DNA of 64,000 nt from Salinispira pacifica (lineage in GTDB: Bacteria > Spirochaetota > Spirochaetia > DSM-27196 > Salinispiraceae): contig NC_023035.1 of the NCBI RefSeq assembly GCF_000507245.1, positions 1,527,501-1,591,500 of the forward strand. The letters run 5' to 3'. The notes under the pieces are model-generated. The model saw only the letters and a program-made list of their open reading frames with translations. It did not search any database and was not told the origin of the DNA. The stretch's first letter is position 1; every line of letters begins with the position of its first letter. Shown here piece by piece: positions 36,529 to 43,157 of the stretch. A program made the translations under genes and the position numbers.

Positions 36529-37329
36529 CCCTATGGAGAGCTTTGGATCGAACGCACCCGTGACAATGCCGTAGAACTTCCGTTCCGGTTTACCGGGAAA
36601 GAGTTCGACAGCGAAACCAACCTGTATTATTACGGTGCGCGGTATATGGATCCCAGGACTTCCAGGTGGATAAGTAGTGATCCGGCTGGGGCGATGTTGT
36701 CGAATCCGATGGGGGCTGATGGGAAGCCCAGGCAAAACTTCAGTATAATTGAGTCGTTGAATCATTATTCGTATGTGAGTAATAATCCGGTGAGGTATGT
36801 GGATCCGACTGGGGAATTCGCTATTGCGATTGGAATTGGCATCGGTCTTACAGAAATATTAAAGGCTGCTTTAGTTGCTACCGCAGTGGTAGGCACTGCT
36901 GCCATGGTGAACGAATATGGAGATGAAATTGCGGGGGCTGGCCAAGACCTAATACAAAGCATGATGTCTGATAGCTCATCTAAAGCTTCTTCGTCGAGTT
37001 CTTCTGATCAGGATCGTGGAACTGGTAGTAATCCCGATCCCGATGATGACGATGACATCCCGCAGAATGCTCGCAGGACGTTGGAGTCAATTGATGAAAC
37101 TGGAAGAGCTCCTGATGGCCATAAGGGAGGCCAGCAATTTGGAAATCGTGAAGGTAAATTACCCTCAACTGATGGAAACGGAAATAATATCCAATATAGA
37201 GAGTGGGATGTAAATCAAAGACAGCCTAGAATAAATCGTGGCCAAGAACGATTAGTAACAGGTAGCGATGGAAGTGCATATTATACTGGAGATCACTACA
37301 ATTCATTTATTCAAATAAGGTAGAATATA

Positions 37330-37809
37330 ATGTATGAAGAAATCAAAAAGGCGATCGGCAGAGATCCATGGATTAATACTATTAATTTTTCTAAGGATGC
37401 TTTTTTCAGTACTCTCTATCGAATCAATCAAGAATCAAATGATTTTGGAGTATACTGGCTATTTGGTCATAAAATGCAGACGAAGAAGGACTTTTACAAT
37501 GTATTCTCAGCGTCTTTACAGTTTCCAGATTATTTTAACGATAATTGGGACTCGTTTGAAGAATGCATGTTTGACCTAGAATGGTTGAAATATAAATCAA
37601 GGGTTATTGGAATAGTCGAATCTGATAAAATACTCACTCAGGAAACTTATTGTGAACGTGAAATATTTTTTGATGTTTTAAAGTCAATAATTAGTAATTA
37701 TAATTCTAGCTTTAGAGAAATTAGCAAAAAAAGTACTTTTTTTAATATATTTCTCCAATGTGAATCTTTGTCTATGGGTGAACAGATTTTTCCAAGAATT
37801 ATTCTTTGA
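37330..37809 (+). CDS. Barstar-like immunity protein
   Basis: The 159-aa protein lies 6 nt after the RNase-tipped RHS gene. It carries the barstar-family core FPDYFNDNWDSFEECMFDLE, in which the NWD motif and acidic helix normally plug the active site of barnase-type RNases. Gene order, spacing and the matching toxin fold support toxin-immunity pairing. Base composition is markedly A+T-rich relative to nfo upstream, which suggests transfer. The first IS copy begins 12 nt after its stop. Confidence 0.88.
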   Translation: MYEEIKKAIGRDPWINTINFSKDAFFSTLYRINQESNDFGVYWLFGHKMQTKKDFYNVFSASLQFPDYFNDNWDSFEECMFDLEWLKYKSRVIGIVESDKILTQETYCEREIFFDVLKSIISNYNSSFREISKKSTFFNIFLQCESLSMGEQIFPRIIL

Positions 37810-37820
37810 ATCATTATTTA

Positions 37821-39438
37821 GGGCCTCCTGAAAAAACCTTAACCCTATACATATAAATGAAATACTGCTAGGATTTGTGTATGAAGTGCACGGTTTTTGC
37901 GAAAACCAGGCAAAAACCCTTGCACCTGTTTTCTTGGCGGGAGGGATTATGTATAGAACTGAGGACAAAACGCAGCTTTCATTTGAAGATTTCTATCTCC
38001 CATTTGGAGGCAAACTGAACCCCAATAACCGCTGGGTTCAGCTTGCTGATTTAATTCCCTGGGAAGATTTAGAAGCAGAATACGCCTCACAGTTTGCTAT
38101 CGAAAGCGGGCAAGGCGCTCCGGCGATCCGTTTCCGTACAGCATTGGGTGCCCTGATTATAAAGGAAAAATTAGGAATTACAGATGAGGAAACCGTGGAG
38201 CAGATTCGTGAGACGCCTTACCTGCAATATCTCATCGGAATGCAGGGGTACCAAGATGAGACTCCTTTTGATCCATCAATGATGGTCCATTTCAGAAAGC
38301 GAATCAGCATGGACATGATCACTCACGCAAATGAATTGATTATTGCCGAAGAACGTAAAAAAAAACTGAAGATGATACGGAAGCTGAAAAAGAAGAAAAT
38401 CCTGAGGTAGAAAACAACGGAAAGCTTCTGATTGATGCCACCTGCGTACCCGGTGATATTCGATATCCCACCGATCTTTCGATTTTAAACGAGAGCCGGG
38501 AAAAACTGGAAACCATCATAGACGTTCTTCACGCAAAACGGGCCAAGGGGGCGACAAAACCCCGAACCTACCGGCAGAAAGCGCGAAAGGATTTTTTGGC
38601 GGTCATCAAAAAGCGCAGAGCAAGCAAGAACAAGATGCGCAAGGCAATACGCAAGCAGCTGGGGTACATACGCCGTAATCTCCGGCATATAGAGCAATTA
38701 GCAGCAGGTGTCGGTTTGAAAAGCCTGTCACGGAAACAGTACCGGAATATGCTGGTTATCTCGGAAGTCTTTCGCCAGCAGGCACTGATGTATGAATCCA
38801 AAGATCATCGAATATCGGGCCGGATTGTGAGTATCTCCCAACCCCATATTCGACCCATCGTCAGGGGAAAAGCCGGTACCCCGGTTGAGTTCGGCATGAA
38901 GATTTCATCCGCCAATATTGACGGGTACATGTTTATCGATCGCTGTTCATGGGATCCATACAACGAGTCTGGTGATTTAGTCATGCAGGCTGAAAAGTAC
39001 AGGCACAGATATGGTGTGTATCCGGAATCAATACACGCCGATCAGATTTACCGCACCAGGGGCAACCGGAATTGGTGCAAGGAACGGGGAATCAGATTAT
39101 CCGGTCCGCCGCTTGGTCGTCCACCGAAAGATCGTGGTGAAAATCGGGAACGAAAGAAGCTGGCTCGTCAGGATGAGCTGGATAGAATAGCTGTCGAAGG
39201 GACATTTGGCAGAGCAAAACGACGGTACTCAATGGGTCGTTTAATGACAAAGCTTGCTGAGACCAGTGAATCGCAGGTGGCCATGATCATGCTGGTGATG
39301 AACCTGGAAAAGATTCGGAAGGATCTTTTTTACGTCTTTATCATAGCTATGCTACGCAGCCGAAAAATTACGAAGTCTCATTTCCCCGTGGTATTGGGGT
39401 ATGGTAATATGGCAGCATAGGGTTTTTTCAGGAGGCCC
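37821..39438 (+). mobile_element. IS element copy 1 (IS5/IS1182-like), 1,618 bp
   Basis: The left end GGGCCTCCTGAAAAAACC and the right end GGTTTTTTCAGGAGGCCC are perfect 18-bp inverted repeats. TATTTA flanks both sides (37815-37820 and 39439-39444), which may be a 6-bp target duplication or a result of tandem copying. The transposase is in two frames joined at an A9 run. A second copy follows after those 6 bp. Confidence 0.92.
37949..39420 (+). CDS. IS5/IS1182-like transposase, two frames joined at an A9 run (copy 1)
   Basis: The first frame (ATG 37949 behind GGGAGGG, to 38410) holds the DUF772-like N-terminal domain: RFRTALGALIIKEKLGITDE, GMQGYQDETPFDPSMMVHFR. The second holds the DDE-type catalytic part: LLIDATCVPGDIRYP (first Asp), DGYMFIDRCSWDPYNESGDL, SIHADQIYRT, GIRLSGPPLGRPP and VEGTFGRAKRRY (Glu). 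The frames meet at nine A residues (38357-38365), where a -1 shift or insertion of one A gives RKKKTEDDTEAEKEENPEVE and a continuous protein of about 490 aa. The related remnant at 28.6 kb has eight As, also out of frame, which argues for programmed slippage. Confidence 0.88.
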
Positions 39439-39444
39439 TATTTA

Positions 39445-41062
39445 GGGCCTCCTGAAAAAACCTTAACCCTATACATATAAATGAAATACTGCTAGGATTT
39501 GTGTATGAAGTACACGGTTTTTGCGAAAACCAGGCAAAAACCCTTGCACCTGTTTTCTTGGCGGGAGGGATTATGTATAGAACTGAGGACAAAACGCAGC
39601 TTTCATTTGAAGATTTCTATCTCCCATTTGGAGGCAAACTGAACCCCAATAACCGCTGGGTTCAGCTTGCTGATTTAATTCCCTGGGAAGATTTAGAAGC
39701 AGAATACGCCTCACAGTTTGCTATCGAAAGCGGGCAAGGCGCTCCGGCGATCCGTTTCCGTACAGCATTGGGTGCCCTGATTATAAAGGAAAAATTAGGA
39801 ATTACAGATGAGGAAACCGTGGAGCAGATTCGTGAGACGCCTTACCTGCAATATCTCATCGGAATGCAGGGGTACCAAGATGAGACTCCTTTTGATCCAT
39901 CAATGATGGTCCATTTCAGAAAGCGAATCAGCATGGACATGATCACTCACGCAAATGAATTGATTATTGCCGAAGAACGTAAAAAAAAACTGAAGATGAT
40001 ACGGAAGCTGAAAAAGAAGAAAATCCTGAGGTAGAAAACAACGGAAAGCTTCTGATTGATGCCACCTGCGTACCCGGTGATATTCGATATCCCACCGATC
40101 TTTCGATTTTAAACGAGAGCCGGGAAAAACTGGAAACCATCATAGACGTTCTTCACGCAAAACGGGCCAAGGGGGCGACAAAACCCCGAACCTACCGGCA
40201 GAAAGCGCGAAAGGATTTTTTGGCGGTCATCAAAAAGCGCAGAGCAAGCAAGAACAAGATGCGCAAGGCAATACGCAAGCAGCTGGGGTACATACGCCGT
40301 AATCTCCGGCATATAGAGCAATTAGCGACGGTAGTCGGCTTGAATAGCCTGTCTCGGCAGCAGTACCGGAATATGCTGGTGATCTCGGAAGTCTTTCGCC
40401 AGCAGGCACTGATGTATGAATCCAAAGATCATCGAATGTCAGGCCGGATCGTGAGCATATCCCAACCCCATATTCGCCCCATAGTCAGGGGAAAAGCCGG
40501 AACCCCGGTTGAGTTCGGCATGAAGATTTCATCCGCCAATATTGACGGGTACATGTTTATCGATCGCTGTTCATGGGATCCATACAACGAGTCTGGTGAT
40601 TTAGTCATGCAGGCTGAAAAGTACAGGCACAGATATGGCGTGTATCCGGCATCAATACACGCCGATCAGATTTACCGCACCAGGGATAACCGAAATTGGT
40701 GCAAGGAACGGGGAATCAGATTATCCGGTCCGCCGCTTGGTCGGCCACCGAAAGATCGTGGTGAAAATCGGGAACGAAAGAAGCTGGCTCGTCAGGATGA
40801 GCTGGATAGAATAGCTGTCGAAGGGACATTTGGCAGAGCAAAACGACGGTACTCAATGGGTCGTTTAATGACAAAGCTTGCTGAGACCAGTGAATCGCAG
40901 GTGGCCATGATCATGCTGGTGATGAACCTGGAAAAGATTCGGAAGGATCTTTTTTACGTCTTTATCATAGCTATGCTACGCAGCCGAAAAATTACGAAGT
41001 CTCATTTCCCCGTGGTATTGGGGTATGGTAATATGGCAGCATAGGGTTTTTTCAGGAGGCCC
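39445..41062 (+). mobile_element. IS element copy 2, tandem to copy 1
   Basis: It has the same 1,618-bp length and the same 18-bp terminal repeats. It is separated from copy 1 by TATTTA only, and its right flank is AAATTA. Differences from copy 1 cluster in roughly one 400-bp patch of the transposase (for example around 40326-40745), while the rest appears identical. That suggests partial conversion or independent arrival, not a simple recent duplication. Confidence 0.92.
39573..41044 (+). CDS. IS5/IS1182-like transposase, two frames joined at an A9 run (copy 2)
   Basis: The organisation is as in copy 1, with the A9 run at 39981-39989. Amino-acid differences from copy 1 include the stretch after RHIEQLA (TVVGLNSLSRQQ versus AGVGLKSLSRKQ), ISGR to MSGR and YPES to YPAS. 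All catalytic motifs are kept, so both copies may be functional. Confidence 0.88.
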
Positions 41063-41149: not shown

Positions 41150-41944
41150 ATGAAGATAGAGAAGAAGATTCTTATATTGGCTTTAATTTCGTTTACTGTG
41201 GTTTCTGTTATTTTTGCCGATGGCGATCCTATATTCAATCAAAGATATGTAGGAGAATTCTCGGAGGTCATCATTTCAGAATCAGCGGTAACTTATATTA
41301 ATAAAGCAGGGATACCTGGAATTCCTGAGGAGATAACCGTTTCTCCGTATAGTGTAGTTGAAAAGGATAATGTCCCCTTTGTTGTCGATGCGGAAGGCTC
41401 AATCAAATTTCTAGTTCTTCAAAATGATGAACTACAGAAACTCTATATTCAGGATTTTCGGGGGAATATTGCGAATGGTGTAGCTGAAGAAATCTACCGG
41501 CCAAGAGCTGAGGATTTTGTAACTCCATGGGACTTGACTGCTTCATCATTTTTGATCGAAGGAGAAACTGAGTATTTACCTGAAAATTTGTCGCGTATTC
41601 GCCTAAATGAACCGTGGGTAGAAGGTGTACCAGGAAACGGTATAGGTGAATGGATAGAATTTTCTATGGGACCATTTGAAGGATTTTATCTCTTCAATGG
41701 GTTTATTTCTTTCGATAAACCCGACCTGTATACCCGGAACAGCCGGGTGAAAACCTTCAGAGTTTATGACTTAACAGCAGGAGATAATTGGGTTATTGAG
41801 CTGGATGATACTCCGAGTCCGCAATTTTTTAGTCTGGAAGGAAGACAGCGCCATAAAATTAGACTCGTAATCGAAGTTGTTTATGAAGGAACTCAGTATG
41901 AAGACACGTGCTTAGCCGGAATACTTCTACGGCGAAGGTTCTAA
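41150..41944 (+). CDS. Secreted protein with NADase-type glycan-binding domain
   Basis: The 264-aa protein has a signal peptide (KKILILALISFTVVSVIFA). The second half matches the NADase-type glycan-binding fold common in spirochaetes: LTASSFLIEGETEYLPENLS, NEPWVEGVPGNGIGEWIEFS, NGFISF and NSRVKTFRVYD. Only the binding domain is visible; no NAD glycohydrolase domain is present, so a surface or carbohydrate-binding role is an inference. A+T-rich, it sits between the IS pair and a structured non-coding region, so it may be horizontally acquired. Confidence 0.82.
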   Translation: MKIEKKILILALISFTVVSVIFADGDPIFNQRYVGEFSEVIISESAVTYINKAGIPGIPEEITVSPYSVVEKDNVPFVVDAEGSIKFLVLQNDELQKLYIQDFRGNIANGVAEEIYRPRAEDFVTPWDLTASSFLIEGETEYLPENLSRIRLNEPWVEGVPGNGIGEWIEFSMGPFEGFYLFNGFISFDKPDLYTRNSRVKTFRVYDLTAGDNWVIELDDTPSPQFFSLEGRQRHKIRLVIEVVYEGTQYEDTCLAGILLRRRF

Positions 41945-42118
41945 CCTCACTTAAGTCCGCGGGTCACCTTTTGTAGCTGCGATCTTGAGCGTGGAATTGT
42001 GGATGACCGACATTGCGCAGAGGGATTGGAAAGACAGTGAGGTTCGTGGGAGCGGTACACAGTTATCAGTTCACATAACCGGAACCACTGGTTTTGATGA
42101 AAACAAAAGCCTGAAGAG

Positions 42119-42211
42119 TCGACCGAATGCTGGTTATGTGGCGGAGGGCCGAAAGGCCCGAAGCGCACAGCTGCCATGGAAAGCAGCTGCACATAACCCG
42201 CATTCGGTCGA
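42119..42211. repeat. 93-bp palindrome with predicted three-way junction
   Basis: The outer arms 42119-42140 and 42190-42211 pair over 21 of 22 positions, with a single T-C mismatch. The enclosed 49 bp form two perfect hairpins: GGGCC-GAAA-GGCCC (42146-42159) and CAGCTGC/GCAGCTG (42168-42189) with loop CATGGAAA. The loop resembles those in the tandem array near tRNA-Pro. Confidence 0.85.
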
Positions 42212-42226
42212 GGTCTGGAGCCAGGG

Positions 42227-42269
42227 CTGGTCGGCGGCTGTTGCCACCTGCTCGCCCATGCAACCAGGG
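42227..42269 (-). mobile_element. Mini-element copy, minus orientation
   Basis: Read on the minus strand it is CCCTGGTTGCATGGGCGAGC, A, stem GGTGGC/GCCGCC with loop AACA, then GACCAG: exactly 43 bp. CTGGT near the start pairs with ACCAG at the end. Confidence 0.85.
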
Positions 42270-42343
42270 AAGGCTATCGTCCCTTACTCCCTCAGGCTTT
42301 TGTTTAGTTCGCTGATCAGTCAGTTCGCAGATAATTTTGAAGT

Positions 42344-42411
42344 GCATAATAGTAAGTTCAAGCTGACAAGCTCCCTTTGCGGTCGCTTGCAGCTTAACTC
42401 GGGCATTATGC
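42344..42411 (+). repeat. Integron attC-like recombination site
   Basis: Outer boxes GCATAAT (42344-42350) and ATTATGC (42405-42411) are perfect complements. Inner boxes GTTCAAGCTG (42356-42365) and CAGCTTAAC (42390-42398) pair with one extrahelical C (42359), as in L''/L' of known attC sites such as that of aadA cassettes. Spacers are 5 and 6 nt, and the loop has a further CAAGC/GCTTG stem. The outer boxes depart from the RYYYAAC/GTTRRRY consensus (A replaces the G at the cleavage position). No integrase gene is in the window. Confidence 0.6.
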
Positions 42412-42454
42412 AAGGAAATTGAATTACACTGTGCGTTTGATTGTACGGAAAACC

Positions 42455-42781
42455 TTAGACGCAGATGATGTCATGTTCTTCCAGTACCCTGGTGTCTGTT
42501 TCGAGAAGTTGGAGCATTCTCAAAGCCGGACCCTGCGGCTTATTGCGGCCGGATTCCCATGCCTCAATCGTTTTCGTGGAAACACCTAAGGCTTTTGCAA
42601 AGACGATTTGGGAGAGGTTGAGGGTATTTCTAATGGCGCGAATCGTTTCTGCGGTATAGTTGGGCAATGGAGAGATCGTAACGGCTCGCCGTTTTACTCC
42701 CTTGAGATTCCCTTTCTGATATTCAATGGCTTCATTCAGCCCAGTCATGATGCTTGAAAAAACGGTATGTGCTTCACTCAT
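42455..42781 (-). CDS. XRE-family antitoxin (HigA/NadS-like)
   Basis: The 108-aa protein has an XRE helix-turn-helix, AETIRAIRNTLNLSQIVFAK and ALGVSTKTIEAWESGRNKPQ, typical of antitoxins encoded after RelE/HigB-fold toxins. It probably binds the toxin and represses the pair. Its start overlaps the toxin stop by 8 nt. The region to its 3' side is the attC-like site, as is common for toxin-antitoxin cassettes in integrons. Confidence 0.87.
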   Translation of the reverse strand: MSEAHTVFSSIMTGLNEAIEYQKGNLKGVKRRAVTISPLPNYTAETIRAIRNTLNLSQIVFAKALGVSTKTIEAWESGRNKPQGPALRMLQLLETDTRVLEEHDIICV

Positions 42782-43157
42782 CTAACTTTCTCCTCTGCTG
42801 AGTCTTCAGCTGATCAACTACGCGTTTAATCTGTTTCTTTTCATCCTGGGTTAGGTTGATCTTGGTCGTTTTACCAAAGCAGGTGACCAGGTATATGGTC
42901 TCAAAAAACGCAAAATCAACATACAAAACCCGCGCTCCGCCGCTTTTTCCAGTAGCAGGAAGCGCCCAGCGAAGCTTTCGAAGCCCGCCGGTACCCTGGA
43001 TTACATCTCCTGTTTCAGGGTTTTCGCACAGAAATGCTTCCAAGTCTCTTTGGTCATTGTCATTCAGCCCGAGTTTTTTCCATTGTGCTTCAAATTCCGG
43101 TAAAAAATGAACTCTCTGGTCATATGCTACTATACACCCTACTCCGTAGGGTATCAA
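42774..43157 (-). CDS. RelE/HigB-type toxin
   Basis: The 127-aa frame matches RelE/HigB-like mRNA interferases of the NadS-associated type: FEAQWKKLGLNDNDQRDLEA, GLRKLRWALPATGKSGGARV, LYVDF and the final lysine-rich helix LTQDEKKQIKRVV. The N-terminus is uncertain: the frame begins with TTG at 43157 and no good ribosome binding site is seen, and the conserved part starts near VHFLPEFE. Toxin precedes antitoxin, as in higBA. Confidence 0.85.
   Translation of the reverse strand: MIPYGVGCIVAYDQRVHFLPEFEAQWKKLGLNDNDQRDLEAFLCENPETGDVIQGTGGLRKLRWALPATGKSGGARVLYVDFAFFETIYLVTCFGKTTKINLTQDEKKQIKRVVDQLKTQQRRKLDE

Follow-up and report, generated by a model that had tools for sequence, protein, structure and literature searches.

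A hairpin between convergent genes of the spirochaete Salinispira pacifica was found to be built like the attC site of an integron but to lack the crossover triplets of such a site. It belongs to a separate, small family of spirochaete hairpins, previously undescribed to my knowledge, whose members occur in genomes encoding IntI and lie mostly close to RHS toxin modules. I give an even chance to the reading that the family is an attC-derived hairpin lineage which has lost canonical cleavage by IntI and has become scattered among toxin-immunity and toxin-antitoxin modules, at their 3′ ends. Here, the window is the whole 64-kb stretch of DNA that was analysed, and the window site is the hairpin within it, at positions 1569838-1569915 of the genome, which was examined in stretches rather than as one whole sequence.

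Structure of the window site

Known attC sites are recognised by their shape; the AAC/GTT triplets are their only conserved bases, with GTT marking the crossover, and IntI uses the folded bottom strand, in which the extrahelical bases have a role (PMC2727003). The parts of the window site are listed in Table 1. Its boxes run in the order R'' (TGCATAAT), a 5-nt spacer, L'' (GTTCAAGCTG), L' (CAGCTTAAC), a 6-nt spacer and R' (ATTATGCA). The outer arms are perfectly complementary over 8 bp. In the inner stem, GTT(C)AAGCTG(A)CAAGC pairs with GCTTGCAGCTTAAC; past L'', the stem consists of CAAGC, a loop and GCTTG, followed by L' (42390-42398). The layout proposed in the initial annotation (42344-42411, boxes GCATAAT/ATTATGC and spacers of 5/6 nt) agrees with the sequence, except that two bases, C42359 and A42366, are extrahelical where a single C had been described. 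On the bottom strand they are G and T. The bottom strand folds with R and L stems, an unpaired central spacer and an extrahelical G and T on one arm. The triplets AAC in R'' and GTT in R' are absent; AAT and ATT stand in their place, and the lack of G-TT at the crossover, remarked on from the start, is a real variant feature. The window site resembles an attC hairpin in structure but fails the defining triplet, and it is not classed as an attC site. Since its folding beats 200 of 200 shuffles on each strand (z -2.9 and -3.8) and it is the sole match in the window of a model trained on canonical attC sites, the structure is beyond chance.

Table 1. The window site and neighbouring features, in window coordinates
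Feature	Position	Strand	Remarks
RHS tip with barnase-type ribonuclease domain	36646..37323	+	PF00545, TIGR03696; RHS core match 36529-36813
Barstar-type immunity gene	37330..37809	+	PF01337
Secreted protein, NADase_transloc domain	41150..41944	+	PF25302; closest gene to the site on the side away from the RelE-type pair
Large hairpin, outer arms AACAAAAGCCTGA / TCAGGCTTTTGTT, inner arms with everted GTTATGTG / CACATAAC	42102..42304	.	z -7.0
Outer arm 1 (R''-like box) TGCATAAT	42343..42350	+	ends AAT, not AAC; unchanged in the other genomic copy
Left unpaired central spacer AGTAA, 5 nt	42351..42355	+	5-nt length common to most family sites
L''-like arm GTTCAAGCTGACAAGC, extrahelical C 42359 and A 42366	42356..42371	+	R3 aligns the bulges with canonical attC bulges
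L'-like arm GCTTGCAGCTTAAC	42385..42398	+	folding and model R3
Right unpaired central spacer TCGGGC, 6 nt	42399..42404	+	
Outer arm 2 (R'-like box) ATTATGCA	42405..42412	+	A replaces G of GTT
HTH antitoxin-like gene	42455..42781	-	HTH_3; weak MqsA; 3′ end 44 bp from the site
RelE-type toxin-like gene	42774..43157	-	PF06296

Relation to attC sites

A covariance model, R3, was made from 27 canonical spirochaete attC sites only, nearly all of them sites of cassette arrays. In the window, R3 gave a single match at E <=10, at 42338-42416 on the plus strand (27.2 bits, E 2.4e-4). A covariance search had been suggested as a check on the attC-like reading; run with R3, which is blind to the hairpin family, it returned this significant score and bore the reading out. 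As R3 represents canonical attC sites alone, its match indicates that the kinship with attC exceeds visual likeness and that the window site is related to integron attC sites. The score is under those of most canonical sites (29-62 bits). R3 also independently recovers the second copy in the genome and other family members, inverted partners included, at 19-36 bits.

It could be argued that the hairpin is a structural element of 3′ ends, such as a terminator, an RNA stabiliser or a REP-like repeat, and resembles attC by convergence. Its location between convergent genes would suit this, as would the inverted pairs of some family members, which enclose further hairpins. Nevertheless, such an origin is very unlikely, considering that an attC-trained model recognises the site and that both bulges are at attC positions. 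No intrinsic terminator (a G+C-rich stem followed by a T run) was found in 41900-42700, which makes a plain terminator less likely, and the window site has no match to a known RNA family in Rfam. REP/REPIN and MITE-like repeats are likewise small dispersed hairpins, sometimes in inverted pairs, between convergent genes. In contrast, the stem, bulges and internal loop of the present family are those of attC, and there are 1-3 copies per genome.

The sites can also be compared with known attC types. The chromosomal integron attC of Treponema (T. denticola / T. putidum type) shares with the window type the L stem TTCAASCTGACA..TGCAGSTTAA, two extrahelical bases in the same places and a length of 60-70 bp. 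Unlike it, the window site has no AAC/GTT, has spacers of 5/6 rather than 4/4 and lies outside an array, and the R boxes of the window type are longer, fully complementary and variable. The aadA-type attC of mobile integrons presumably has inner boxes GTTCAAGC / GCTTAAC and 5/6 spacers like those of the window site, which differs from it in missing the crossover triplet and in having no adjoining IntI.

Neighbouring genes and the cassette question

The initial annotation had the RelE-type pair starting 44 bp from the site and pointed out that integron arrays commonly hold toxin-antitoxin cassettes. It was revealed that the pair is on the minus strand and that its 3′ end (42455), converging on the site, is what lies 44 bp away. 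R3 found no second attC in the 64-kb window, and the far side of the pair has no attC; with a single R3 match, a cassette array within the window was ruled out. A gene between successive attC sites of the same orientation, in an array joined to intI/attI, was not found here, and the integron of the genome is about 670 kb away. The pair points to the site and lacks an attC behind it, so it does not qualify as a demonstrated cassette.

Upstream of the site, at a distance of 5.7 kb, lies a barnase/barstar RHS module (36646-37809). The NADase_transloc gene stands between them, together with a two-ORF transposase element (IS) present in two almost identical copies arranged head to tail, at 37877-39420 and 39501-41044. 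The large hairpin at 42102-42304, which measures roughly 200 bp and is very stable, is possibly a degenerate partner hairpin of the window site. It has no R3 match. Half of its outer arm recurs beside the second copy of the site in the genome, and a tandem 43-bp repeat at G000:C1:2457623-2457839 resembles window positions 42224-42269. The everted GTTATGTG/CACATAAC motifs at 42073-42198 were considered as extra attC sites and rejected, having the wrong orientation or inner boxes and no R3 match.

The integron and the second copy in the genome

An intI gene, further attC sites and a recurrence of the variant boxes had been named as things to look for, and all three were found. A protein matching IntI (TIGR02249, 384 bits against a cut-off of 265) lies at 2238244-2239170, adjoining an array whose core is GTTATG and whose attC sites have the usual geometry; canonical attC sites were found in loci L011 and L012. 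The genome therefore has an integron by both an IntI-specific profile and an attC array. The IntI protein is 474 amino acids long, with a long N-terminal extension (L012:3749-5173), and the array to its left (L011) is broken up by several identical IS copies. One further copy of the window site lies at 2078878-2078975 (91% identity over 99 bp) and also has GCATAAT/ATTATGC. Both copies differ from the core of the array, GCATAAC/GTTATGC, in a single base of each arm, the one at the crossover position. The array sites have 4/4 spacers and AAC/GTT, as against 5/6 spacers and no AAC/GTT in the window site.

A hairpin family in spirochaetes

The family was collected by DNA search, by a pattern scan of 84,980 genomes and by the models R1 and R2 over spirochaete genomes. 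These searches yielded two clearly distinct groups. The canonical group has NNNTAAC and GTTANNN, spacers of 4/4 and GCTTCAACC/GGTTAAGC. The window group has GTTCAASCTGA/CAGSTTAAC and spacers of about 5/6, the right one mostly ending in C. It comprises 11 sites in seven spirochaete genomes, several of them related by descent: two in S. pacifica, three in genome G252, two in G600 and one each in G270, G321, G331 and G606. AAC/GTT is present in 27 of 27 canonical sites, which have 4-nt spacers, and in none of the 11 family members. The R boxes of the family include TGCATAAT, CAATAAAAG, CAATAAAAT, CAATACAAT, AAGCCTAAT, GCCTAAGA and CCAAGAAAA, each with its complement or near-complement opposite. 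In an alignment that was not fitted to the structure, six pairs of the outer helix have changed on both sides. The structure as a whole has a covariation score of 0.278; shuffled versions score 0.085 and slid versions at most 0.088. As the outer stem has been kept paired by compensatory change, it seems that the hairpin as such is either maintained or copied whole.

In G252 and G606, about 120 nt beyond one family hairpin lies another in the inverse orientation, and the stretch separating the two contains additional hairpins. Two of the G252 loci have complete pairs, and one has a damaged first hairpin. Similarity among the G252 units is 82-88% and stops at the outer boxes. The inverted partners in loci L157 and L038 are picked up by R3. 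A conserved unit of about 260 bp, with two inverted attC-like hairpins and several more hairpins between the two, was seen at convergent gene ends in L157:5711-5970, L114:10457-10718, L156:5707-5890 and L038:4501-4761.

Some similar sequences were set apart from the family. Locus L052, with a similar inner stem but longer spacers, was left out of the count; no IntI of its genome exceeds the cut-off. Weak matches in G596, G601 and G321:C144 were rejected after inspection. In gut Treponema (L032, L034, L040, L044, L047, L055, L056 and L061), an attC-like inner stem with flanks other than AAC/GTT lies at one orthologous spot, and in each of four loci that were inspected a phosphoglycerate mutase-like gene has its 3′ end there. 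Also left out were matches in rumen Treponema that lie downstream of such a gene and constitute a single orthologous spot of a different kind. A phage or plasmid origin was considered and set aside; there is no match for the window site, and the stricter family pattern is absent from viral contigs, in which a loose pattern has five matches.

Is the window site an ordinary attC site that has decayed? Its cassette would have been out of the array for long, the triplet would have drifted, and R-box complementarity would have been kept by chance or by hairpin-templated repair. The single base per arm that separates the site from the core of its own array agrees with this. Single attC sites have been discussed as possible true positives in IntegronFinder 2.0, isolated ones being known as one-site CALIN (PMC9024848), and three of eight T. 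denticola attC types have no identifiable AAC (PMC3607928). However, the triplet-less 5/6 form recurs with the same central stem in seven genomes at separate loci, and under neutral decay pairs would be broken, not altered on both sides in step. The inspected arrays of member genomes have canonical sites of another geometry, with long terminal structures; thus, the family does not simply consist of locally decayed array sites. Ordinary decay is distinctly unlikely. The family shares with one-site CALIN an isolated attC-like site distant from IntI, but the window type is recurrent, co-varying and triplet-less across several genomes, is associated with RHS and sometimes forms inverted pairs.

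Association with IntI and RHS modules

IntI is found over the cut-off in all seven member genomes, against 80 of the 394 genomes (20%) in a sample of the class. Within that sample, five of five members have IntI (hypergeometric P 3e-4), an association weakened by relatedness within two families. By the curated cut-off, the 80 genomes are spread over many families beyond Treponema. A 2013 study took Treponema to be the only integron-bearing clade of spirochaetes (PMC3607928); the claim that integrons occur solely in Treponema among spirochaetes no longer holds.

A TIGR03696 RHS core match lies within 6 kb of seven of the 11 family sites, where 0.08 would be expected; the P value (about 1e-13) is indicative only, because the limit of 6 kb was chosen once the data were known and because some sites share a common descent. 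With a limit of 2.5 kb, six of the 11 sites are near such a match. The second copy in S. pacifica is 1.1 kb from an RHS core match, flanked by the immunity-like gene of the latter and by a small, convergent accessory gene, and the distance is 0.9-2.3 kb in G270, G321, G600 (twice) and G252:C68. No RHS core was found near the G606 site and two of the three G252 sites; in G331, an RHS-like protein adjoins the site but gives no TIGR03696 core match. The family follows RHS toxin modules more closely than it does toxin-antitoxin pairs.

At the two G600 loci and in G321, the sequence flanking the hairpin is shared on one side only; the RHS-immunity modules across from it are unrelated, and the switch comes at the R' box. 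This raises the idea of an active non-canonical site, at which a spirochaete IntI or another tyrosine recombinase would use a different core (for example C/ATT) and exchange RHS tip-immunity and toxin-antitoxin modules like integron cassettes. The homology of the modules ending at R', and that of the G252 units ending at the outer boxes, would fit, as would the conserved hairpin, bulges and spacer asymmetry, the co-varying outer arms and the IntI in every member genome. On the other hand, the only conserved bases of attC (PMC2727003) are absent from all members, no dedicated recombinase gene was seen adjoining the sites, and breakpoints at the outer boxes are equally predicted by a small mobile hairpin unit. 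The orientation to the toxin module also varies between genomes: the constant polarity relative to RHS that a cassette would show was not found, with G270 and the second copy of S. pacifica set one way and G321 and G600 the other. I regard such an active site as unlikely. Less probable still is the stronger claim that a divergent class of integron-type hairpins with another crossover core swaps the RHS toxin-immunity and toxin-antitoxin modules of spirochaetes outside the array.

Origin of the family

With the shape kept and the triplet absent in every member, the family most likely descends from attC and no longer serves as an ordinary crossover site. It keeps the parts of attC that IntI recognises in the folded bottom strand, which are the L stem, both extrahelical bases and a central spacer without pairing, and the hairpins are perhaps still bound by IntI. 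It has lost AAC/GTT, where IntI cuts, so that by the established rules it would not be an ordinary cassette site; the loss of cleavage is deduced from the missing triplet. Such a lineage may have escaped from cassette arrays, then lost the canonical crossover and spread as small hairpin or hairpin-pair units where RHS, immunity and toxin-antitoxin modules turn over. This mode of spread, like any present function, is an inference. Singly or as inverted pairs, the members lie at the 3′ ends of accessory modules that converge, most of which are RHS toxin-immunity modules, toxin-antitoxin genes or small accessory genes. The small size of the family, the sites in G331, G606 and G252 that are exceptions to the RHS association, the inconstant orientation to RHS and the similar L052 hairpin in a genome without IntI count against the attC-derived lineage.

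The exchange of polymorphic toxin tips and immunity genes is poorly understood. From a large survey of polymorphic toxins, recombination was inferred to take place at the 3′ tip of toxin genes, in passages that name no dedicated site (PMC3482391), and a literature search found no paper joining Rhs, attC, integron and immunity. Hairpins that are attC-like save for the crossover triplet, in genomes with IntI and beside toxin modules, offer a concrete and testable exchange site. If a different core is in use, integron recombination would be linked to the turnover of polymorphic toxins. If the hairpins are inactive, they would represent a natural series of the attC parts that are retained after the loss of cleavage.
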